Source of the DNA: Clostridiales bacterium
GTDB taxonomy: Bacteria > Bacillota > Clostridia > Oscillospirales > Oscillospiraceae
Assembly: GCA_022774865.1 (NCBI GenBank)
Contig: JALFLH010000003.1
Location: 1-64,000, forward strand
DNA: 64,000 nt
Direction: 5' to 3'
Under the pieces are notes generated by a model. It searched no databases, was not told the DNA's origin, and saw nothing but the letters and a program-made list of their open reading frames with translations. The first letter of the stretch is position 1. Each line of letters opens with the position of its first letter. The translations under genes and the position numbers were made by a program. Shown piece by piece: positions 2,450-33,775 of the stretch.

Positions 2450-2460
2450 CAACGAAATAA

Positions 2461-2603
2461 ATCCCTGCGGGATTTGTGAAATACCGCTTTGCGGTGTGAA
2501 ATATGGCTTTGCCATGTGAAATGCCTGCGGGCGTGGGGGATTTATTTCATTTCACTTGATGCGCTGCATCAAATTTCACAATGATCGCAGATCATTATTT
2601 CAC
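2461..2603. repeat. Symmetric array of six mini-hairpins joined by GTGAAAT / ATTTCAC linkers
   Basis: The order is: hairpin ATCCC-GGGAT (2461-2473), GTGAAAT, hairpin ACCGC-GCGGT (2483-2495), GTGAAAT, hairpin ATGGC-GCCAT (2503-2515), GTGAAAT, hairpin GCC-GGC (2523-2532), a short spacer, ATTTCAC, hairpin TTGATGC-GCATCAA (2556-2572), ATTTCAC, hairpin AATGATC-GATCATT (2580-2596), ATTTCAC (2597-2603). The left linkers are exact reverse complements of the right ones, so the array can also fold as one large cruciform. The hairpin sequences all differ while loops and linkers are conserved. It is not a CRISPR array because the units are palindromes of unequal sequence. Function unknown; a MITE- or REP-like element is possible. 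Confidence 0.7.
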
Positions 2604-4195: not shown

Positions 4196-4726
4196 TTACT
4201 GGGAGACGACCTCAACCTGATCGAGTTCAAACTCGACGGGGGTCTCACGGCCAAACATGGAAACAATCACGCTGACCGCATTCTTGTCGATGTCGATGTT
4301 TTCCACCGTGCCGGTGAAGCTGGTCAGCGGGCCGTCCAGAATCCGAACCGTATCGCCGACCGCGTAGTTGACGACAATCTCTTTCTTCTCGACGCCCATG
4401 GCGTAGACCTCTTCGTCCGTCAGGGGGGTGGGATCGTTGCTGGATGAACCGACGAATCCGGTTACGCCGCGTACATCCTTGATGACGTGCCAGGTGTCAT
4501 CGCTGTAGACCATCTTGACCAGCACATAGCCGGGAAAAACCTTTCGATCGTAGGTTTTGCTTGCGCCGGACTCGGTGATCTCGGTGACGGTTTCCAAGGG
4601 AATGGAAACGGCCAGAATCTGATCGTGCAGTCCGCGGCTTTCCACAGTCTTTTCAATGGTGGCCTTGACGGTGTTTTCATAACCGGAATAGGTATGAACA
4701 ACATACCATCTTGCAGTTTCTGCCAT
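4196..4726 (-). CDS. nusG: Transcription termination/antitermination factor NusG
   Basis: A 176-residue protein with the NGN domain ([35 protein letters not shown]) followed by a C-terminal KOW domain ([22 protein letters not shown]). NusG binds the RNA polymerase clamp and couples transcription to translation or pausing. secE lies immediately upstream with an 11-base gap and rplK downstream, the classical arrangement. Secure. Confidence 0.98.
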
Positions 4727-24067: not shown

Positions 24068-24154
24068 GGTGCGCGAGGCGGGACTTGAACCCGCACGTCC
24101 GCAGTGAACACTAGAACCTGAATCTAGCGAGTCTACCAATTCCACCACTCGCGC
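24067..24154 (-). tRNA. tRNA-Leu(CAG), copy 2
   Basis: 88 bases including encoded CCA. Acceptor GCGCGAG/CTCGCGC; anticodon stem CTAGA/TCTAG encloses TTCAGGT, anticodon CAG; class II variable arm. It is a tandem duplicate of 24176-24263 with a single visible difference in the variable arm. Confidence 0.96.
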
Positions 24155-24175: not shown

Positions 24176-24263
24176 TGGTGCGCGAGGCGGGACTTGAACC
24201 CGCACGTCCGCAATGAACACTAGAACCTGAATCTAGCGAGTCTACCAATTCCACCACTCGCGC
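24176..24263 (-). tRNA. tRNA-Leu(CAG), copy 1
   Basis: 88 bases, the same acceptor, anticodon CAG and encoded CCA as the following copy. 21 bases separate the two, so they are probably processed from one transcript ending at the 24037-24067 terminator. Confidence 0.96.
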
Positions 24264-24614: not shown

Positions 24615-25154
24615 TTATGGAATCCGGCGGTAATGCCCGTCCTGAATTGCGTAGCCCCGCCCGGGTTCTGGCTGCCATTCATAGCGGGATTTGTTTTCGC
24701 CGGGGAACAGGTGCTCCAGGATGGCGGAAATGACCCCGCCATGGGTGATCACCACCGTGTCCTCCTGAATCCGGGAAAAAGCTTCCAGTACACGCTCCTT
24801 CATCTGGGCGCCGCTTTCTCCCCCCGGGGGGATGTTTCCTTCGTTGTCTCCTGTGAGCCATGCCTGATAGGCAGGAATGTCTTTTAGTTCCTCATAGCTG
24901 TGCATTTCAAAAATGCCGAAGTCAACCTCCCGAAACTGGGGTGCCTCCTCATAGAATACATCGCCAAAAAGAATGCGCAGGGTTTCGTTTGTCCGCTTCA
25001 TTCCGCTGGTGAGAAAGCGGACGTTTTGAATGTCATAATGCAGTTGTGCCAGTTCCGCTGCACCCTGTCGGGACAGAGGCAGATCGGTACTGCCGCAGTA
25101 GAGGCGGCGCTCGTTGGCTTCCGTTTTGCCGTGACGAATCAGATAAATCCTCAT
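24615..25154 (-). CDS. CobC-like histidine phosphatase (alpha-ribazole phosphatase)
   Basis: 179 residues of the phosphoglycerate mutase-like superfamily: LIRHGKTEANERRLYCGSTDLPLS at the N-terminus holds the phosphorylated histidine, with REVDFGIFEM and VITHGGVISA later. GxTDxPL is frequent in CobC. The start codon overlaps the stop of the short CobU gene (ATGA), and it is the last gene of the cobalamin operon. That supports removal of the 5' phosphate of alpha-ribazole or cobalamin-5'-phosphate. The superfamily is certain; the substrate is inferred from context. Confidence 0.87.
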   Translation of the reverse strand: MRIYLIRHGKTEANERRLYCGSTDLPLSRQGAAELAQLHYDIQNVRFLTSGMKRTNETLRILFGDVFYEEAPQFREVDFGIFEMHSYEELKDIPAYQAWLTGDNEGNIPPGGESGAQMKERVLEAFSRIQEDTVVITHGGVISAILEHLFPGENKSRYEWQPEPGRGYAIQDGHYRRIP

Positions 25155-25513
25155 TTGAGCCGGTGCTCCAATCCGCAGAAAATCCGGCTGACCCGGGTGG
25201 CCTTCGATGCCAGATACTGGCAAAGCCGGCCGGTATCCTGCCGCCAGGCGCGCGCATGGCCATCCACGGGCACCACGCCGCAGAAAATATCCTGGCAGAT
25301 CAGGATGGCATCCTCCCATTCCGCCCGGTGGGCCTGAAAGAAGGAAAGGGCATCCGTCCGTGTTTCAGTGAATACCTCCAGTCGGTCGATGCAGGGTTTG
25401 GAAAAGTCAATTTCCGCTCCGCTGCAGGTGTAGATGTCCGAATCCTTCAGATGAAATTCTCTTTTCGCAAACTCCAGCTTGCCCTGCCAGGCTCCGCCGA
25501 TAATCAATACCAT
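25151..25513 (-). CDS. Shortened CobU paralogue with altered P-loop
   Basis: 120 residues, against about 180 for CobU. The N-terminal strand and P-loop read LIIGGAWQGKLEFAK, so the usual Ser/Thr after the P-loop Lys is Leu. The C-terminal half (DIFCGVVPVDGHARAWRQDTGRL, ending CGLEHRLK) aligns by eye with the end of CobU (GxGIVP...RxFRDxxGRxN...GxPxxLK). The central segment with the guanylylated histidine is missing. It sits between cobS and the cobC-like gene, with a full CobU two genes upstream. It could be a regulatory or partner subunit, or a kinase of a different nucleotide-loop intermediate. Function not established. Confidence 0.75.
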   Translation of the reverse strand: MVLIIGGAWQGKLEFAKREFHLKDSDIYTCSGAEIDFSKPCIDRLEVFTETRTDALSFFQAHRAEWEDAILICQDIFCGVVPVDGHARAWRQDTGRLCQYLASKATRVSRIFCGLEHRLK

Positions 25514-25523
25514 AATGGCCTCC

Positions 25524-26264
25524 TTAAATCAGACAGGCGGCTGCGGCGCCGCAAAGCTCTCCGATGGTCAGCGCGTAGCCCGCAATGTCCCCGTTCATTC
25601 CCTCCAGAGATCGATAGCCCCGGCGCAGCGCCAGCGCGTAGCCGGCCATACATCCGGCCAACGCCAGACCACCTTTGCCGCAGATCAGAATACCGGCGGC
25701 AGTCAATACAAACAGCACAGTTGAAAGGACAATCAGATGAGATTTTGGCTTTTCCTGCGCGGCGTACTGGCTGGTGGGCATGGGCTTCAGACCCGTCACC
25801 GCCAGCGCGGAGCAGCACCGGCTGACCGCCGGGATCAGAATCAGAATCCGAAAATCCGTATTTTCCCGCGCGGAAGAGAAAAAGGTGAACTGCGCCAGAA
25901 TCAGCATGGCTACGCCGATCACCGCGAAGCTGCCAACATGGGAGTCCTTCAGAATTTCCCGGCGGCGCGCCGGCTCACGGCAGGATTTGACCGCGTCGGT
26001 TACGTCCATGAATCCGTCGAGGTGGATAAATCCCGTGGAAAAGTAGGGCCATGCGCTCAAAAACAGTCCGGATACAAGCGACGGCAGCGACAGCAGGCGG
26101 CACAGCCAAGCCAGAACTGCCCACAGAATTCCGATTTCCAGCCCCACCAGAGGCAGAAACAGCAGCATTTTCCCCCGGGCTTTTTCGTCCCAGATCTGAA
26201 AGGGGAAGGGAATGGCGCAGAACATACTCTGGCACATGGCAAAAGCGTGCAGACAGGTTTTCAT
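25524..26264 (-). CDS. cobS: Adenosylcobinamide-GDP ribazoletransferase (cobalamin synthase)
   Basis: 246 residues, multiple membrane helices. The motif GFIHLDGFMDVTDAV near residue 78 is the CobS signature with the metal-binding acidic residues, and KDSHVGSFAVIG is also conserved. It joins activated cobinamide to alpha-ribazole (phosphate) at the membrane, completing the nucleotide loop. Its start overlaps the end of cobU by 4 bases. Secure. Confidence 0.96.
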   Translation of the reverse strand: MKTCLHAFAMCQSMFCAIPFPFQIWDEKARGKMLLFLPLVGLEIGILWAVLAWLCRLLSLPSLVSGLFLSAWPYFSTGFIHLDGFMDVTDAVKSCREPARRREILKDSHVGSFAVIGVAMLILAQFTFFSSARENTDFRILILIPAVSRCCSALAVTGLKPMPTSQYAAQEKPKSHLIVLSTVLFVLTAAGILICGKGGLALAGCMAGYALALRRGYRSLEGMNGDIAGYALTIGELCGAAAACLI

Positions 26265-26806
26265 AGCGGCATCGCTCCCTTGTAGAGAATGGGGATTCCC
26301 GCGGACATTTCCACAACCGTGTCGCAGACCTGCGCGAGGCGGCGGTCAATTTTCGCCAGACACCGGCGGTAGGCTTCGGTGGACGGATCATAGTGCACCG
26401 CATCGGAATAGAGATAATCGCTGACGACGACGGCATTGCCCACGCTTCGGACAAACGCGATCAACTCATCGGCACATCGGCCTGCTGCTTCCAAATCCAT
26501 TTCATAGTTTTTTTCCGGGGGGAACAGGGCGTTCTGCAGCAGCGCCGTGGCGCTGTCTACCAGAAAGGTGCCGGTTCTGTCCACCCGGTTCAGACAGGAC
26601 AGAATGTCCCGCCCGCATTCAATGGTTTCAAAGCCGAGACCGGCCCGGTCGGCGACGTGCCGCCGGATGCGCGCCCGGTCCTCCGCGTCCACAGGGATCA
26701 TGGTGGCGACATAGTAGCGTGGGCCGTTCCGGGACAGGGTCACGGCCAGATTCTGCGCCAGCGTGGATTTCCCATTTTTGGCTCCACCGGAAATGAAACA
26801 GGTCAT
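26261..26806 (-). CDS. cobU: Adenosylcobinamide kinase / adenosylcobinamide-phosphate guanylyltransferase
   Basis: 181 residues, the full CobU length. The P-loop GGAKNGKST lies at residues 7-15, ATMIPVDAEDRARIRRH carries the guanylylation region, and LVDSATALLQNALF and VVVSDY follow. It phosphorylates cobinamide and transfers GMP to give cobinamide-GDP for CobS. It overlaps cobT by 4 bases (ATGA). Secure. A second, shortened CobU-like gene lies two genes downstream. Confidence 0.95.
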   Translation of the reverse strand: MTCFISGGAKNGKSTLAQNLAVTLSRNGPRYYVATMIPVDAEDRARIRRHVADRAGLGFETIECGRDILSCLNRVDRTGTFLVDSATALLQNALFPPEKNYEMDLEAAGRCADELIAFVRSVGNAVVVSDYLYSDAVHYDPSTEAYRRCLAKIDRRLAQVCDTVVEMSAGIPILYKGAMPL

Positions 26807-27891
26807 CGGCTGCCCTCCACTGTGAATTTGTCACCCTGCCGGATTTCGTCCAGATAGCCGGCGTCAATGCCGGCCTGATCGAAGGTTGCCATCCCGTTGA
26901 TGATGGCGCAGGCGGCGGAGAGTACCTGAAAGGCCAGCGGACATCCGCTGCCTTCCCCCAGCCGCATTCCCAGCAGGAACAGCGGCTCCAGTCCCATGTC
27001 CTCCATGGCAAGGCGGTAGCCTATTTCATAGGAGGCGTGGCTGGGAATCAGGTAATGGCGGACATTGGGACAGAGCCGGACGGCGCACAGCGCGGCCACA
27101 GCGGAGATAAAGCCGTCGATGACTGCGGGACGGCGGGACGCAGCCGCCCCCAGAAATGCGCCGCACATGGCGGCAATGTCAAATCCGCCAACCTTGGCCA
27201 GCACATCCACCGGGTCATTCCGGTCAGGGTGGTTCAGGGCGATTGCCTGACGGATAACCTCCTTTTTCCGGCGGAAGCTGTCGTCTGTAATGCCGCCGCC
27301 CCGGCCGGTGACGGTCTCCACCTCCGCGTTTAGCAGAACGGCAAGAACGGCGGCGGAGGTAGTGGTGTTTCCAATGCCCATTTCCCCGATGCCGATTCCA
27401 TCGGCTTCCGTGGAGTGGGCAAGTTCGAATCCGGTTGCGATCGCCTGTTCCGCCTGTGCGCGGGTCATGGCAGCCTCGTGGGCGATGTTTCGGGTTCCGT
27501 AGGCAATTTTCCGATTCAGAACCGCGCCGGTTGGGATTTCCGCGTTGACACCCACGTCGCATACGGTGATGCCGCAGCCAAAGTGTTTGGCCAGAACGGA
27601 GGCGCCGGTTTTGGCGCGGGTCAGATTGATGGTCTGCATCCGTGTCACCGACTGCGGGGCGCTGGATACGCCCTCGGCCACGACGCCGTTGTCGGCGGCG
27701 AACACCAGAAGATGCGGTTGCTCCATCCGGTTGTAAACCGATCCTGTGATGCCCGCCAACTGGATGGACAGTTCCTCCAGCCGACCCAGACTCCCGGGGG
27801 GCTTGGCGAGCTGGGCCTGACGTGCCCGCGCTGCCGCCATGGCAGCTTCGTCCGGCGGTTGAACCGCGCTGATCATTTCTGTCAAAAGCAT
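26803..27891 (-). CDS. cobT: Nicotinate-nucleotide-dimethylbenzimidazole phosphoribosyltransferase
   Basis: 362 residues. Typical segments are LAKPPGSLGRLEEL, VFAADNGVVAEGVSSAP, GEMGIGNTTTSAA and the glycine-rich GRGGGITD. It transfers phosphoribose from nicotinate mononucleotide to a lower-ligand base to give alpha-ribazole phosphate. It lies between the CbiR-like gene and cobU in the riboswitch-controlled operon. Which lower ligand it prefers cannot be read from the sequence. Confidence 0.97.
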   Translation of the reverse strand: MLLTEMISAVQPPDEAAMAAARARQAQLAKPPGSLGRLEELSIQLAGITGSVYNRMEQPHLLVFAADNGVVAEGVSSAPQSVTRMQTINLTRAKTGASVLAKHFGCGITVCDVGVNAEIPTGAVLNRKIAYGTRNIAHEAAMTRAQAEQAIATGFELAHSTEADGIGIGEMGIGNTTTSAAVLAVLLNAEVETVTGRGGGITDDSFRRKKEVIRQAIALNHPDRNDPVDVLAKVGGFDIAAMCGAFLGAAASRRPAVIDGFISAVAALCAVRLCPNVRHYLIPSHASYEIGYRLAMEDMGLEPLFLLGMRLGEGSGCPLAFQVLSAACAIINGMATFDQAGIDAGYLDEIRQGDKFTVEGSR

Positions 27892-28634
27892 GGTGATTCC
27901 TCCATAAGTATACGCAACGAGGGCTCCGTTTCCGTCAGCTCCAGCGTAAAGGTTGCCCCCGGGCAGAGCGTTTCTGCCCGGCTCAGAAAGGCGCGCATAT
28001 CGATGCTGCCCCGATTCAGGGCACTGTGGGTATCCTGACGGCCATCGTTGTTGTGAATGTGAAAATGGCTGATGAATGGCGCGCAGCGCTCCAGCCAGAT
28101 ATCGGCCGGAAGGGAGGAATAGACATTCACGTGCCCTACGTCCAGACAGAGCCGCAGCCGCGGGTCGTCCACCCCCCGGATGATATCCAGCAGCATCTCC
28201 GGTTCTTCCTCCATGACGTTTTCCAGCGCGATGGGGAGGCCGGGGGCTTCTGCCAGGAATGATTTCCAGAAAGCAATGGACTCTTCCCTGTACCAGCAGG
28301 GGTAATACAGCCGGGGGCTGTAGCCGCCGTGAATGACAATTTTCTCCGCGCCGTAGGATTCCGCCAGCACCATGGCCTGCCGGTAGCGGAACGCGGCCAG
28401 TTCCCTTGCCCTGGGGTCGATGGCGCAGGGAAACAGCTCGTTGAAGGGCGCATGAAAAATGCGCCGGTCTACCCCGTTCAGTTTTTCCCGCACCAAAGAA
28501 TCGGTCTGGGGAAAGCGTTCATCCATATTCCAGGCGGTGCAGTATTCCGCGATTTCCAGACCCAGATTCAGACGTCTCGCCTGCCTTTCGGCATCGGCGG
28601 CAATGGTGGACAGGTAGAGTCTGTTGGTAATCAT
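27882..28634 (-). CDS. CbiR-like TIM-barrel protein (xylose isomerase/AP endonuclease superfamily)
   Basis: 250 residues starting MITNRLYLSTIAADAERQ. Superfamily metal sites are visible: VIHGGYSPR, ALENVMEEEPEM, LCLDVGHVNVYSS, HFHIHNNDGRQDTHSALNRG and LELTE. Sugar-phosphate isomerase-like proteins have varied roles, but in a B12-riboswitch operon with cobT, cobU and cobS the best match is CbiR, the cobamide-remodelling hydrolase first described in Akkermansia, which belongs to this superfamily. It would cleave the nucleotide loop of imported cobamides so that CobU, CobT and CobS can rebuild them with a preferred base. Superfamily is clear; the CbiR identity is inference from context. Start at 28634 overlaps the S-component stop by 4 bases. 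Confidence 0.8.
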   Translation of the reverse strand: MITNRLYLSTIAADAERQARRLNLGLEIAEYCTAWNMDERFPQTDSLVREKLNGVDRRIFHAPFNELFPCAIDPRARELAAFRYRQAMVLAESYGAEKIVIHGGYSPRLYYPCWYREESIAFWKSFLAEAPGLPIALENVMEEEPEMLLDIIRGVDDPRLRLCLDVGHVNVYSSLPADIWLERCAPFISHFHIHNNDGRQDTHSALNRGSIDMRAFLSRAETLCPGATFTLELTETEPSLRILMEESPCF

Positions 28635-29338
28635 GCTGATTTCTCCATTCCCCGCAGCATTCCGTACTTGATTTTGATCCGTTCCAGTTTTTCCAGCATG
28701 GGTTTTCCCAGCAGGGACAGCACCAGAAATGTGCCGACAGCCTGACTGAAATTGACCGGAAATCCGGCAAGATAGATGGCCATCACATTTTTGAAATTGA
28801 TGGTGATCGGGGCGAGAAAGACCGTGCAGGTGTCCAGTAACGGGCCGACAAAAAACAGAACCCCAAGAAATCCGAACACGCCCATGACGAGGGGCTTTCG
28901 GGGCAACCGTCTGCCATAAAACAGAAAGCCTGCCAGCATTCCACCGGCGCCATAAGCCATCATCTGCCAGGGGGTATAGGGCCCCTGACTGTAAAAGAAA
29001 TTGCTGGCCAATGCGCTGACCGCGCCAACCAGAAAGCCGGATTCTGGGCCGAACGCGATGCCCGCAATCATGATAACGCCGAAAATTGCCTTCAAGCCGG
29101 GAATTGGAATGGCAACCCGGGCTGCGACAGCCAGTGCGCACAGAACGGCCAGAATCACCAGCTCCCGCGCCTGCGGCTTCCGTCCTTCAAACGCCATGAA
29201 AAAGGGAATCAGCAGCTCCATGACCACCAGGGTGCTGGTGGCGTAGTACCACCGGCCGGATAACCGGGAGCCGAAAATCAGTGTAGCCGGAATGCACACG
29301 AGAAAAATCAGAAGTGTGGCAATGTGGGATTTTTTCAT
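28631..29338 (-). CDS. ECF transporter S component, probably for a cobamide or precursor
   Basis: 235 residues with about six membrane helices. The segment AIPIPGLKAIFGVIMIAGIAFGPESGFLVGA and the following MMAYGAGGMLAGFLFYG are typical of ECF S-components of the predicted cobalamin-related group (CbrT/CblT-like). It overlaps its own ATPase gene by 4 bases, forming a dedicated group I ECF system. Control by the cobalamin riboswitch upstream and the salvage genes downstream indicate a corrinoid, cobinamide or alpha-ribazole substrate. It should capture the substrate outside and hand it to the T/A module. Confidence 0.87.
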   Translation of the reverse strand: MKKSHIATLLIFLVCIPATLIFGSRLSGRWYYATSTLVVMELLIPFFMAFEGRKPQARELVILAVLCALAVAARVAIPIPGLKAIFGVIMIAGIAFGPESGFLVGAVSALASNFFYSQGPYTPWQMMAYGAGGMLAGFLFYGRRLPRKPLVMGVFGFLGVLFFVGPLLDTCTVFLAPITINFKNVMAIYLAGFPVNFSQAVGTFLVLSLLGKPMLEKLERIKIKYGMLRGMEKSA

Positions 29339-30999
29339 GACAGGTCAGCCTCCCGGTTCGCGGCAATCAGCGCGGTGACGTCTTCCGCCGTGACGGCCAT
29401 GGAAAAGATGTGGCGGCTCATGCGGTTGGCTGCGGTGGTATAGAAGCTGTTGCTTCCGAAAAACCGCCTTGGTGTATCGGTTGTGAGAATCTGTCCGTCA
29501 AAGAACATACTCACCAGATCGGCGTACCGGGCGCAGAATTCCACATCATGGGAAACCATGACGATGGTGATACCCCGGGCTTTCAGGCTGGTCAGAATCT
29601 CGGCGAAGGCTGATTTGAAAAAGCTGTCCAGACCTTTGGTCGGCTCGTCCAACAACAGAATTTGGGGATTGGTCAGCAGAACCTTAGCCAGCGCGGCGCG
29701 CTGCTGCTCGCCGCCGGACAGGTCGCAGGGGTGACTCTCCAGCAGGGAAGTAAGCTGGCAGAGGGATGCGACGTGGTCAATCTGAGCCTGATCCGCACTC
29801 ATTTCTTCCAGTTCCGCGCGGACGGTTTTTTTGACGAAAAGGCTACGGGGATCCTGCGGCAGCATGGCAATACAGCCGTGGAACAGTTCCGACGGCCGGA
29901 TGGATTCCGCCGGTTTTCCGCAGATTCTGATTTTTCCACGGTACGGACGGCAGATGCCGCAGATGGTTTTCAGCAGGGTGGATTTTCCCGCACCGTTGCC
30001 GCCGACGATGGTATAGAGGCTCCCGGTGGGGATCTCGGCGCTGACACCCCGGAGAATGTCCGCGCCGTTCTTTTCGTAACGGAACCACAGCTCCTTCAGA
30101 GACAGCGCCGGAACAGCCGTTGGCGTTTTGGCAGGTTCAGCCGGAAGCCCTTTCACCTGCGGCGATTCCGGGAAAAGATGGCTGAGCCAGGTTCGTCCCT
30201 CCCGCACGGTCAGCGGACACTCGCCCCGGCCATAGGCGCCGTAGAACACCCTCACCGGCGTGGGCATGGCGGAGAAAAGATCGCTGTTCTGGTCATGCAG
30301 ATGTTTGCCGATCTTCGAGGGGGTATCGTCGGCAATGATTGCGCCGCAGTCCAGAATGACAGCCCGGTCGGCATTGGGCAAAATATCCTCAAGACGGTGC
30401 TCCGTGATGATGATCGTGGTGCCCAGCTCCAGATTGATCTTGCGCACGGTATTCAGAAAGTCCGACGCGGCGATGGGATCGAGCTGGCTGGTGGGTTCGT
30501 CCAGAATCAGCACCTCCGGCTGCATCGCCATGATGGAGGCCAGATTGAGCAGTTGCTTCTGTCCGCCGGACAGGCTGGCCACATCCCGATGAAACCAGTC
30601 CTGAATCCCAAAATAGCAGGCCATTTCCGCCACCCGGGCGCGCATGGTTTTCTGGTCACAGCCCAGACTTTCCAGGCCGAAGGCCAGCTCATGCCAGACC
30701 TTATCGGTGACGAGCTGATCGTCGGGATTCTGCATGACATAGCCGATTGCAGCGGCCTGATCGTAGGCGCTGACCTGCTCCAGCGGAATACCGTTGAAAA
30801 AAACCGTGCCGCTTCGCCTGCCGTAGGGGGTCAGAACAGATTTCAGATGGCGCAGCAGGGTCGTTTTCCCCGAACCGGATTTACCGAACAGAACCACATA
30901 TTCTCCTTTTTCAATAGACAGGCTGATGTCTCGCAGCGCGGTTCCGGTGTCGGAAGCGGGGTAGGAGAAGGTCAGATTGCGGATCTCGAAATGTGCCAT
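29335..30999 (-). CDS. Fused two-domain ECF ATPase for corrinoid uptake
   Basis: 554 residues with two ATP-binding cassettes. Domain 1: GKSGSGKTT (39-47), YVMQNPDDQLV, SLSGGQKQLLNLA, LILDEPTSQLD. Domain 2: GGNGAGKST near 335, DLSGGEQQRAALA, LLLDEPTKGLD. It replaces a separate EcfA/EcfA' pair, as in dedicated ECF systems. AGGAGG lies 7 bases before the ATG at 30999; an upstream ATG (31050) would extend into the ecfT gene by unlikely residues. It powers import by the adjacent T and S subunits. Confidence 0.93.
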   Translation of the reverse strand: MAHFEIRNLTFSYPASDTGTALRDISLSIEKGEYVVLFGKSGSGKTTLLRHLKSVLTPYGRRSGTVFFNGIPLEQVSAYDQAAAIGYVMQNPDDQLVTDKVWHELAFGLESLGCDQKTMRARVAEMACYFGIQDWFHRDVASLSGGQKQLLNLASIMAMQPEVLILDEPTSQLDPIAASDFLNTVRKINLELGTTIIITEHRLEDILPNADRAVILDCGAIIADDTPSKIGKHLHDQNSDLFSAMPTPVRVFYGAYGRGECPLTVREGRTWLSHLFPESPQVKGLPAEPAKTPTAVPALSLKELWFRYEKNGADILRGVSAEIPTGSLYTIVGGNGAGKSTLLKTICGICRPYRGKIRICGKPAESIRPSELFHGCIAMLPQDPRSLFVKKTVRAELEEMSADQAQIDHVASLCQLTSLLESHPCDLSGGEQQRAALAKVLLTNPQILLLDEPTKGLDSFFKSAFAEILTSLKARGITIVMVSHDVEFCARYADLVSMFFDGQILTTDTPRRFFGSNSFYTTAANRMSRHIFSMAVTAEDVTALIAANREADLS

Positions 31000-31841
31000 T
31001 GAATGGCCTCCTTGATGTGTAATGCCGAAGGAATCAGCAGAAGAATGCAATAGGTGGCGAACCCGAAAGAAAGAGGCGCTATCCGGATTTCAGGGGAAAA
31101 CGCCGCCGTTTTTTCCCCGCCGAGAATTACGGCAGTTGCCAGCGTGGCCATGCAGGCAATCAAAACCCAGTCCTGCCCGGTCATGTGGTAAATCTGGAAG
31201 CTCGTCCGGGGGGCACTGCCGTAGCCTCTGGCGCGCATGGAATCGCTGGTCGTGATGCTGCCTTCCAGCGCCCAGTCCATCAGTGCGGAGAGAACGGACA
31301 TTCCGTCGGCGATTCTCTCTTTGACGCCGGATTCCTCCGACGCGCTCTTCCCGATACATTTTCTGGCACCGGAAATCTGCCCCGCCTTACGGATGAAGCC
31401 GGGAATCATGCGCAGCACCATCACCAGAAGCAGTGACAGCGCCGGAATCAGATTGCCGAACAGGCTTGTGAATTTGTCGCTGGTCATCACGGCGCTATAG
31501 CACCCGAACCAGAGCAGCATCTCCACGAGCATCCCGGAGATGACCATGCCGTACAGCAGCGCCTCCAGTGTAAAGGGTCTGCCGAACAGGCAAAACAGAA
31601 CCGTCGCCCCATAGGTATTGAACAGGGGATTGATGGCAGAAAGCAGAACAAACACGGGTACAAGCCCGCAGATCATCCGCCATCCCGACCTGCCGTTCAG
31701 CAGAAGATAATAACTTCCGGCGCACACCGCACCGGCCAGCAGATAGGCCGGATGCTGAATCACCACCCCGAACCCGATGGCAAGCATGAAAAACAGAAAG
31801 CTGACCGCTGGATGACGGTTGGAAAGCGCGTCATGGGTCAT
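30972..31841 (-). CDS. ECF transporter T component of the corrinoid uptake system
   Basis: 289 residues, multiple membrane helices, with the coupling motifs SGARKCIG and, later, SMRARGYGSAPRT that dock on the ATPases. Its ATG at 31841 directly abuts the U-tract of a terminator hairpin, and the only ribosome-site-like bases (AAGGGGG) lie in that hairpin's 3' arm. It is the first gene of the operon and the direct target of the cobalamin riboswitch at 31925-32075. Overlaps the ATPase gene start by 28 bases. Family clear. Confidence 0.9.
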   Translation of the reverse strand: MTHDALSNRHPAVSFLFFMLAIGFGVVIQHPAYLLAGAVCAGSYYLLLNGRSGWRMICGLVPVFVLLSAINPLFNTYGATVLFCLFGRPFTLEALLYGMVISGMLVEMLLWFGCYSAVMTSDKFTSLFGNLIPALSLLLVMVLRMIPGFIRKAGQISGARKCIGKSASEESGVKERIADGMSVLSALMDWALEGSITTSDSMRARGYGSAPRTSFQIYHMTGQDWVLIACMATLATAVILGGEKTAAFSPEIRIAPLSFGFATYCILLLIPSALHIKEAIQWHISRSAI

Positions 31842-31864: not shown

Positions 31865-31924
31865 CTGCAGTCATGCGCCGCTGCGTAACGCGGACAAGCG
31901 GCCGGACAGCCCCCAAGAGTCCGG

Positions 31925-32075
31925 CGCTTGTGTGCAGGTTCGTATTCCGACTCCGGACGCCATGATGCGGCCAGTCTTCTCAGCTTGCGCCAATGACAGG
32001 CAGCGGCTTCAGTTCCGTCTACGGCGGCTTGGTACCGTTGGGATTTCCCCATTCCAATTTACCCGCGACACTTCT
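31925..32075 (-). promoter_or_regulatory. Cobalamin riboswitch of the ECF-cbiR-cobTUS operon
   Basis: On the minus strand: AATGGGGAAATCCCAACGG, the AAGCCGCC stem region, GCCGCTGCCTGTCATTGGC, GCAAGCTGAGAAGACTGGCC, then GGAGTCGGAATACGAACC near 31950. These follow the order of the cobalamin aptamer core (GGGAA...GGTGC..., GCCACTG-type, GGAAGG-type and AGTCAGGATAC-type elements). The terminator at 31842-31864 completes the switch. All operon genes concern corrinoids, which supports the call. Confidence 0.88.
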
Positions 32076-32104
32076 TACCATGTATCATTCCTTCAGATTT
32101 ATTC

Positions 32105-32133
32105 ATGGTATCACATTCGCCGGGCTTTGGCAA
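32105..32133 (-). promoter_or_regulatory. Promoter of the cobalamin operon
   Basis: TTGCCA, 17-bp spacer, TACCAT on the minus strand; the leader would then run about 255 bases through the riboswitch. Confidence 0.6.
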
Positions 32134-32215: not shown

Positions 32216-32755
32216 ATGACAGACGATCAGATAATTCAGCTTGCCTATGGGGAAGGATTTGCCGCTGCCGCAGTGACGGATACAGATAAAATTGTGTTCG
32301 ATCCCGCTTTCCGTCCCTACTGCGCGGAGAATCTGTGCGGGCAGTATGGGGTAAACCATTCCTGCCCGCCGGATTGCGGCACGCCGGAGGAAATGAAAGC
32401 GCGGGTACTGGCGCACCGCAAGGCGCTGGTTCTGCAGAGCATTTGGGAGATATCGGATTTTTCCGATCAGCCGGCCATCAAGGCCGCCAAGCGCGCCCAT
32501 AACGAGGCGGAGATTCGGCTGATCCGGCAGATTCGCGCGCAGGGCTGCGATGGATTGATTGTGGGCGCCAGCGGATGCGCTCTGTGCAGCCCCTGCGCCA
32601 AAAAGCTGGGCGAGCCCTGCCGGTTTCCGGATTATCAATATTCCTGTATGTCAGCTTACTGCGTTTTCGTGAAGAAACTGGCGGATCAATGCGGCATGGA
32701 GTACGACTGTGGAGACGGCCTGCTGGCCTTTTTCGGAATGTATATTTTTGATTGA
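32216..32755 (+). CDS. DUF2284 cysteine-rich metal-binding protein
   Basis: 179 residues. Twelve cysteines, with CAENLCGQYGVNHSCPPDCGTP and CALCSPCAKKLGEPCRFPDY, typical of DUF2284, a family thought to bind an iron-sulfur cluster or other metal. It lies between two cobalamin riboswitches but has its own promoter and GAGAGGTGAT ribosome site. The location suggests, without proving, a link to corrinoid metabolism. No catalytic function is known to me. Confidence 0.88.
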   Translation: MTDDQIIQLAYGEGFAAAAVTDTDKIVFDPAFRPYCAENLCGQYGVNHSCPPDCGTPEEMKARVLAHRKALVLQSIWEISDFSDQPAIKAAKRAHNEAEIRLIRQIRAQGCDGLIVGASGCALCSPCAKKLGEPCRFPDYQYSCMSAYCVFVKKLADQCGMEYDCGDGLLAFFGMYIFD

Positions 32756-32780
32756 ATTTTTCAAAGAGCTGTGCTATACT
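32752..32780 (+). promoter_or_regulatory. Promoter of the second cobalamin leader
   Basis: TTGAAT (overlapping the DUF2284 stop), 17-bp spacer, TATACT with an extended TGC. Confidence 0.65.
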
Positions 32781-32781
32781 G

Positions 32782-32950
32782 GTCAGGCATCCGGGGAATC
32801 AGGTGCAAAACCTGAACGAGCCCGTCGCCGTGAGGCGCAGATCACACGATTATGCTTACCTTTTCCACCGCAGGAGAAGGGACAGACCATTGGATGATTC
32901 TGAGAAGGTCGGATAATCGCGCGCCAAGCCGGAATATCCGGTGCATGACC
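32782..32950 (+). promoter_or_regulatory. Cobalamin riboswitch of the DUF4430 lipoprotein gene
   Basis: GGTCAGGCATCCGGGGAATC, AGGTGCAAAACCTGAACG, AGCCCGTCGCCGTGAGGCGC, GGAGAAGGGACAGACC, and GCCAAGCCGGAATATCCGG follow the cobalamin aptamer order closely. Downstream, TCCTTTAT at about 32955-32965 can pair with ATAAGGA of the ribosome site, so control is probably at translation initiation; no U-run terminator is seen. Confidence 0.9.
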
Positions 32951-33007
32951 TTTCCTTTATGCCGCGGGAGCCGGTTTCGGAAGGGAAAAATGAATAAGGA
33001 GAATACA

Positions 33008-33775
33008 ATGATGAAAATGAACAGCATTCGCAAGAAACTGTCGTTCATCCTGTGTATCGTGCTGATTGCGGCTATGGCACTGTTTACTGCGGGTTGCAAC
33101 GACGCATCCGGCGCACCTTCCGGAACGGCCGCGCCTGCCGGGACTGCTTTTACAGTTGTGGTGACCGATCTTCAGGGTGAGCAGACCACATTCCACTATA
33201 CGTCCGACAAGGATACCGTAGGAGACGCGCTGCTGGCTGAGGGTTTGATCGCGGGCGAGGACAGCGATTACGGCCTGTATGTCACCACCGTCAATGGTAT
33301 CACGGCGGACTGGGACAAGGATCAGACCTATTGGGCGTTCTACATTGACGGTGAATATGCCACCACCGGCGTGGACGCTACCAGGATTTCAGAGGGCGCA
33401 ACCTATTCCTTTGTGCTGACCGGGCCGGAGGAAACCGCGACGGAGGCATCCGCGACAGAGGCGTCCGATGTCACAGTGCTTGGAGAGGGTTCGACGGTTT
33501 TCACTGTGGTGACCACGGATCTGGATGGCGTGGAATCCACATTTGAAGTTCATACCGATGCGCAGACGGTCGGCAAGGCTCTGACTGACGTCAGTCTGAT
33601 TGCGGGACACGACAGCGAATACGGCCTGTATGTGGATACCGTCAACGGCATCACGCTGGACTGGGATAAGGACGGAAAATACTGGGCGTTTTACATTAAC
33701 GGCGAATACGCCATGACCGGTGTGGATACAACGGAAGTGACATCCGGCGCGGTTTACGCCTTCAAGGCGGAGTAA
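33008..33775 (+). CDS. Lipoprotein with two transcobalamin-like (DUF4430) domains
   Basis: 255 residues. The signal peptide ends in the lipobox FTAGC with Cys30, so the protein is lipid-anchored outside. Two tandem DUF4430 repeats follow (about 44-135 and 150-255), nearly parallel in sequence: TVVVTDLQGEQTTF/TVVTTDLDGVESTF, AGEDSDYGLYVTTVNGI/AGHDSEYGLYVDTVNGI and YWAFYIDGEYATTGVD/YWAFYINGEYAMTGVD. DUF4430 is the fold of the C-terminal cap of transcobalamin and intrinsic factor. The cobalamin riboswitch in front strongly suggests that it captures corrinoids for the ECF transporter. AAGGAG precedes the start. Binding is inference. Confidence 0.9.
   Translation: MMKMNSIRKKLSFILCIVLIAAMALFTAGCNDASGAPSGTAAPAGTAFTVVVTDLQGEQTTFHYTSDKDTVGDALLAEGLIAGEDSDYGLYVTTVNGITADWDKDQTYWAFYIDGEYATTGVDATRISEGATYSFVLTGPEETATEASATEASDVTVLGEGSTVFTVVTTDLDGVESTFEVHTDAQTVGKALTDVSLIAGHDSEYGLYVDTVNGITLDWDKDGKYWAFYINGEYAMTGVDTTEVTSGAVYAFKAE

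Follow-up and report, generated by a model that had tools for sequence, protein, structure and literature searches.

A cobalamin riboswitch-linked DUF4430 lipoprotein as a predicted corrinoid-capture partner of a CbrT-like ECF importer in Clostridia

Our analysis of a 64,000-nucleotide stretch of clostridial DNA (hereafter the window) suggests that a small lipoprotein with two DUF4430 domains is a riboswitch-controlled corrinoid-capture protein partnering a CbrT-like ECF importer, a prediction to which we assign a probability of about three in four. Its evidence comes from the gene and its leader, from a divergently transcribed cobamide salvage operon and from the recurrence of this arrangement in related loci. 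The elements in and around the lipoprotein gene are:

32752-32780, plus strand: promoter-like sequence TTGAAT-17-TATACT, its second hexamer preceded by TG (consensus scan)
32755-32959, plus strand: cobalamin riboswitch aptamer RF00174 (44.8 bits, gathering score 31.5, E 5.3e-8 over the full window)
33008..33775, plus strand: tandem DUF4430 lipoprotein of 255 amino acids, with its likely ATG at 33008 (or 33011) behind AAGGAG
33095-33097, plus strand: codon of the lipobox Cys30, preceded by a signal peptide of about residues 1-29 (sequence read by eye)
33137..33430, plus strand: DUF4430 or transcobalamin-beta-like domain 1, residues 44-141 (Pfam match)
33467..33772, plus strand: DUF4430 domain 2, residues 154-255 (Pfam match), sharing 64% identity with domain 1 across 90 residues

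The initial annotation had described two DUF4430 domains fused in one lipid-anchored protein, and this description holds. PF14478 (DUF4430) matches the protein in two stretches (E 4.9e-18, 65.8 bits against a cut-off of 23.8), each domain also passes this cut-off when scored singly (39.3 and 34.8 bits), and the lipobox LFTAGC, read by eye, contains a Cys30 that is retained in 90% or more of the 66 aligned sequences. The two domains are identical at 58 of 90 residues and carry the same conserved motifs; the motif YWAFYI-GEYA-TGVD is very highly conserved. The gene start, by contrast, had to be corrected, because the mechanically listed open reading frame (32852-33775) starts within the riboswitch aptamer, the likely ATG being that at 33008 after AAGGAG. 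The protein consists of signal peptide, linkers and the two DUF4430 domains and nothing else, and its gene is the only DUF4430 gene found in its own, 96% complete genome. By structural comparison, the lipoprotein contains a beta-grasp domain equivalent to the B12-capping beta domain, with 15-23% identity to transcobalamin-type chains in the structural alignments; no transcobalamin chain was retrieved with a sequence profile, and the link to transcobalamin is a structural one. An alpha/alpha toroid was found neither as a Pfam toroid family nor as a helical segment of that kind in the model.

That a cobalamin riboswitch precedes the lipoprotein gene had also been annotated correctly, with the RF00174 match over the gathering score and the aptamer starting at the stop codon of the upstream DUF2284 gene. 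The transcript probably starts near 32782, judging from the promoter-like site, a kind of site that occurs five times in the region against a mean of 1.5 in shuffled sequences and is in itself no evidence of function. Since a sequence scan revealed no terminator-like site between aptamer and start codon, control probably operates at translation, which is the simplest guess. Only two RF00174 matches were found in the genome, the second one lying on the opposite strand in front of the divergent operon:

32216..32755, plus strand: DUF2284 predicted metal-binding protein, between both riboswitches (PF10050, 131 bits)
31920-32109, minus strand: second RF00174 match, before the divergent operon (30.4 bits, 1.1 below the gathering score; E 1.2e-5, local search)
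30972..31841, minus strand: EcfT-like transmembrane protein (frame open to 31916), positioned between riboswitch and EcfA
29335..31050, minus strand: fused double ECF ATPase EcfA-EcfA' (ABC_tran in two stretches; TIGR04520 342 bits, cut-off 315)
28631..29338, minus strand: ECF S component, CbrT-like (PF07155/PF12822 over cut-off; best PDB sequence match 6fnp)
27882..28622, minus strand: TIM-barrel protein resembling CbiR, a putative hydrolase of cobamide remodelling (PF01261, 81.6 bits)
26803..27891, minus strand: CobT (TIGR03160 423.7 bits, cut-off 319.3)
26264..26806, minus strand: CobU (PF02283 98.7 bits, cut-off 27)
25527..26264, minus strand: CobS (PF02654 139.2 bits, cut-off 23.2)
24618..25319, minus strand: CobC-like alpha-ribazole phosphatase (His_Phos_1; TIGR03162 114.7 bits, below the cut-off of 162.9)

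The corrinoid ECF operon postulated to diverge from the lipoprotein gene is therefore present as far as its ECF genes are concerned, but its earlier description had missed the second riboswitch and the tail of CobU, CobS and CobC-like genes. The EcfT-like protein matches neither a Pfam nor an NCBIfam family, and a sequence search of the PDB gave nothing relevant; we take an RG-type motif, together with its position, to support the name, and relatives of this protein occur in 13 of the 80 homologous loci introduced below. The S component carries the Pfam labels ECF-ribofla_trS and ECF_trnsprt and is predicted to be of CbrT type, its PDB sequence search yielding 6fnp (ECF-CbrT) at E 2.7e-5 and next RibU (3p5n) at E 0.002. 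The CbiR-like protein is named with this reserve because it scores 44.5 bits against NF041277 (CbiR), under the cut-off of 105, and the CobC-like gene, about 200 bases past CobS, presumably belongs to the same operon. Judged from these protein families, the divergent gene set looks like a system for uptake of cobinamide or cobamides and rebuilding of the lower loop. CbiC, a marker of de novo synthesis, was not found in the genome by a search that was positive in 7 of 14 control genomes.

The claim that the genome has no other receptor was not accepted: at G000:C10 (L141) it encodes a Peripla_BP_2 lipoprotein together with a FecCD-type permease and an ATPase, an ABC importer resembling FecBCD/BtuFCD, without an RF00174 match there. 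DUF2284 relatives occur in 7 of the 80 loci, five of which (L055, L058, L065, L073 and L083) have them no more than about 700 bases from the DUF4430 gene, and the DUF2284 protein may belong to corrinoid salvage. Elsewhere in the window, two adjacent tRNA matches (24070-24154 and 24179-24263, minus strand, 50.1 bits each) lie just downstream of the cob genes, and a Gut-1 RNA is found at 2450-2527 (plus strand, 82.6 bits).

The initial annotation had staked its proposal on riboswitch linkage being conserved among homologues, and conserved it is. In a biased sample of homologous loci, i.e. the best 80 of 410 relatives obtained with two subfamily peptide patterns (L051 and L052 coming from one genome), a same-strand RF00174 match ends no more than 700 bases upstream in 60, with a median gap of 69.5. 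This tally ties locus to riboswitch by position and strand within a genome, the contig not being checked, and can mislead, as the divergent riboswitch it gives for L090 is absent in a direct scan. When all 60 linked loci were directly rescanned, 53 had a match over the gathering score on the same strand and within 700 bases (14/14, 16/19, 14/16 and 9/11 in the individual batches); the other seven (L044, L045, L069, L072, L076, L119 and L120) had sub-threshold matches of 24.8-30.5 bits, with an additional match over cut-off 1.2 kb upstream in L044. Fifteen of the 20 unlinked loci were also rescanned (L048, L053, L056, L071 and L117 were left out; L053 and L056 have less than 100 bases of upstream sequence): 12 were without RF00174 over cut-off, L083 and L096 had a divergent riboswitch, and L065 had one downstream on the other strand.

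At the scale of the family, 83 of 120 genomes contain DUF4430 and 88 contain RF00174. Among the matches listed, and with one of the two window domains omitted, 9 of 149 DUF4430 domains (window included) have one of 151 riboswitches (the window's own added) no more than 700 bases upstream, where random placement in genomes assumed to be 2.3 Mb long predicts 0.04; within 7 kb, the numbers are 31 of 149 and 0.4. DUF4430 is thus associated with cobalamin riboswitches far beyond chance. Most listed domains have no visible riboswitch link, however, and the generalization that all DUF4430 proteins are B12-controlled was rejected for this reason. Of 29 genomes with a hit to the profile of the window's subfamily, 13 have a riboswitch match directly upstream, three of the 13 below cut-off; 30 genomes had been picked for this from the 120 for small DUF4430 reading frames or weak riboswitch matches, i.e. 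not at random.

Several loci depart from the simple pattern. Near the DUF4430 genes of G088:C3 (37833-39220), L045 (G122:C112:4901-6956) and L044 (G121:C77), several cobalamin riboswitch matches are clustered within a few kb, in tandem or back to back. In L087, L090, L097 and L104, the DUF4430 relative has a tRNA gene some 200-300 bases upstream on the other strand, neither a riboswitch nor an S component was found, and the relative is possibly a paralogue with another role. In L113, a tetrahydrofolate riboswitch (4421-4525, minus strand) is found upstream of the DUF4430 gene on the opposite strand, the S component is the next gene, and there is no cobalamin riboswitch over cut-off.

The second recurrent neighbour is the transporter itself. 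In 50 of the 80 loci the gene after the DUF4430 gene encodes an ECF S component, mostly a few bases away and often without any gap, and its product has the S-component fold; in 13 further loci, as in the window, ECF genes diverge from the DUF4430 gene. Since no Pfam or NCBIfam family names the paired S component, its identity depends on this fold and on a PDB profile match: a profile of 17 sequences (A3) has 6fnp (CbrT) as its sole match at E 1e-11, and a single member reaches 6fnp at E 0.0027, whereas CbrT is not among the matches listed in the fold comparison. An hhalign comparison of the window S family with the paired S family (E 3e-4, probability only 40%) carries no weight. With a riboswitch in 60 and a CbrT-like next gene in 50 of the 80 loci, the idea of a B12-controlled surface protein that has the transcobalamin-cap fold and serves an ECF S component is well supported as a prediction.

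So tight a gene pair, together with the strong conservation of the YWAFYI-GEYA-TGVD motif, might also be expected of an accessory subunit that stabilizes or gates the S component and captures no free corrinoid. The cobalt ECF transporter has a small extracytoplasmic subunit, CbiN, with such a stabilizing or gating role. We nevertheless regard an accessory subunit as unlikely. The fold is that of B12-capping beta domains in particular, and one such domain binds B12 by itself. Here and in 13 of the 80 loci, the gene diverges from the ECF genes and is not paired with the S gene, and copy numbers of one to three domains fit a tethered binder more readily than a subunit of fixed stoichiometry.

Copy number also bears on how a corrinoid-capture protein would hold its ligand. 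The initial annotation had imagined both repeats clamping one corrinoid between them, an arrangement that would take the place of transcobalamin's alpha/alpha toroid. The presence of two intact domains that carry the same conserved motifs, the frequency of two- and three-domain forms among the close homologues looked at and the precedent of transcobalamin, which puts two domains around one B12, speak for this. However, only one DUF4430 domain is present in 9 of 12 syntenic ECF loci (two have two, one has three), in 49 of the 50 loci where an S gene follows (the remaining one scores zero by motif count) and in the lipoprotein of a genome of the same genus (G049); three-domain versions exist, as in L051. 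Moreover, the relative placement of the domains is not confident in the predicted model (pTM 0.51, with pLDDT below 50 for linker residues 143-150). Domain 1 of the window protein is up to 76% identical to single-domain orthologues, compared with 64% to domain 2, and two domains in tandem seem to have arisen by duplication in certain lineages. As a general mechanism the clamp was rejected, given the single-domain orthologues, and for the window protein it seems quite unlikely.

DUF4430 domains also occur in much larger surface proteins. L136, L137, L138 and L139 (the latter at G087:C34:10200-17500) contain riboswitch-led large proteins with DUF4430 and SLH repeats, some with Ig-like domains. 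In L139 a 1011-residue DUF4430 protein, a 515-residue SLH protein and another DUF4430 protein are followed by relatives of EcfT and EcfAA (37% identity over 225 residues and 52% over 172 residues, respectively, to the window proteins). Both the 1011-residue and the 515-residue protein show sub-threshold similarity to alpha/alpha toroids, and L139 could possibly encode a bacterial transcobalamin split into a toroid chain and a cap chain.

For the small lipoprotein, a ligand other than a corrinoid, e.g. cobalt, heme or a lower-ligand base, with mere co-regulation with cobamide salvage, has to be weighed as well. The nearest solved relative, the single-domain RUMGNA_00854 (PDB 3u7z), was deposited as a 'putative metal binding protein', most listed DUF4430 domains lack a riboswitch link, and no cobamide-dependent client enzyme (neither PF02310 nor NrdJ, TIGR02504) was found in the 96% complete genome despite its cobamide salvage operon. 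Yet with a paired S component that matches only the cobalamin carrier CbrT among PDB sequences, riboswitch matches in three quarters of the loci and a fold that is that of B12 carriers, we consider a different ligand very unlikely.

Corrinoid capture by such domains is not a new idea in general. Burroughs et al. 2007 (PMC1796856) defined a transcobalamin-like SLBB clade in low-GC Gram-positives with secreted or surface members, found such domains generally in operons with CbiO-/CbiQ-like (ECF) genes and predicted scavenging of B12 or its precursors, as given in the accessible part of that paper. The window protein belongs to the same domain clade and is likewise found beside ECF genes; B12 capture is supported here as a prediction, with the general idea already theirs. 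Neither 'riboswitch' nor 'lipoprotein' occurs in the main text of that paper, and its accessible part does not describe the unit of riboswitch, small DUF4430 lipoprotein and CbrT-like S component. At the level of titles and abstract beginnings, subscription papers and preprints excluded, no literature was found on riboswitch control of a DUF4430 lipoprotein or its pairing with a CbrT-like S component, and no DUF4430 paper on a bacterial B12 protein; nor did the literature searched, so far as accessible, contain a dedicated substrate-capture lipoprotein for any vitamin ECF transporter.

Among known systems, transcobalamin, intrinsic factor and haptocorrin (PDB 2bb6, 2pmv and 4kki; beta domain alone, 5no0 and 5np4) share the beta cap with the window protein, which differs from them in lacking the alpha/alpha toroid that completes their B12 site, in having two beta domains and in its lipid anchor. 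BtuG and BtuH are Gram-negative proteins with folds that differ from the DUF4430 fold and, unlike the window system, they work with BtuB and BtuCDF; BtuF, also of an unrelated fold, partners a type II ABC importer and not an ECF transporter. In predicted role there are parallels to all three: BtuG and BtuH of the Bacteroidetes are B12-binding proteins of B12 transport loci (PMC6143338, PMC8941943), BtuG in particular being a surface lipoprotein from riboswitch-linked loci (PMC6143338), and BtuF is the extracytoplasmic B12-binding partner of an ATP-driven importer (PMC5997447), each according to the accessible text of these papers. ECF-CbrT of Lactobacillus delbrueckii (6FNP, PMC5997447) is the best PDB sequence match of both the window S component and the DUF4430-paired ones; in the accessible text its cluster is nrdJ-cbrS-cbrT-pduO, with no DUF4430 lipoprotein named, and the S component is itself the binding protein. 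CbrT and BtuFCD also appear as known B12 uptake transporters in what is accessible of a human gut microbiome survey from 2019 (PMC6593275). The gut origin of many related loci (according to record titles) and the precedent of BtuG with intrinsic factor (accessible part of PMC6143338) could suggest that the lipoprotein docks to B12 carriers of the host or of other bacteria and strips them of B12 instead of binding free corrinoid, but this is hardly to be expected of a protein with no sign of a docking partner in sequence or structure and with related loci from several host animals (record titles).

Overall, then, we favour the reading as a corrinoid-capture protein, which would work as follows. 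The lipoprotein would be held by its lipid on the outer face of the Gram-positive membrane and be made under cobalamin-riboswitch control, with corrinoid repressing its synthesis, probably at translation. Each of its DUF4430 domains, predicted to adopt the beta-grasp fold with which the beta domain of transcobalamin and intrinsic factor caps B12, may contribute to catching cobamides or cobinamide outside the membrane. The lipoprotein would thereby raise the local corrinoid concentration for the CbrT-like S component or hand the corrinoid over to it, and the CbiR-like protein, CobT, CobU, CobS and the CobC-like protein would then remodel and finish the cofactor.

We see an even chance that this represents a widespread clostridial B12 ECF importer with a dedicated capture lipoprotein homologous to the animal B12 cap, in which the S component provides the other half of a corrinoid sandwich. 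If so, beta-grasp cap and S component would be the bacterial equivalent of beta cap and toroid in transcobalamin. With a conserved, riboswitch-controlled pair of transcobalamin-cap-like lipoprotein and CbrT-like S component, vitamin ECF transport would gain a capture step outside the cell, and Gram-positive bacteria would have their own counterpart of BtuG and BtuF. Such a finding would also bear on how animals acquired their B12 carriers, and competition for B12 among gut Clostridia would become directly testable.
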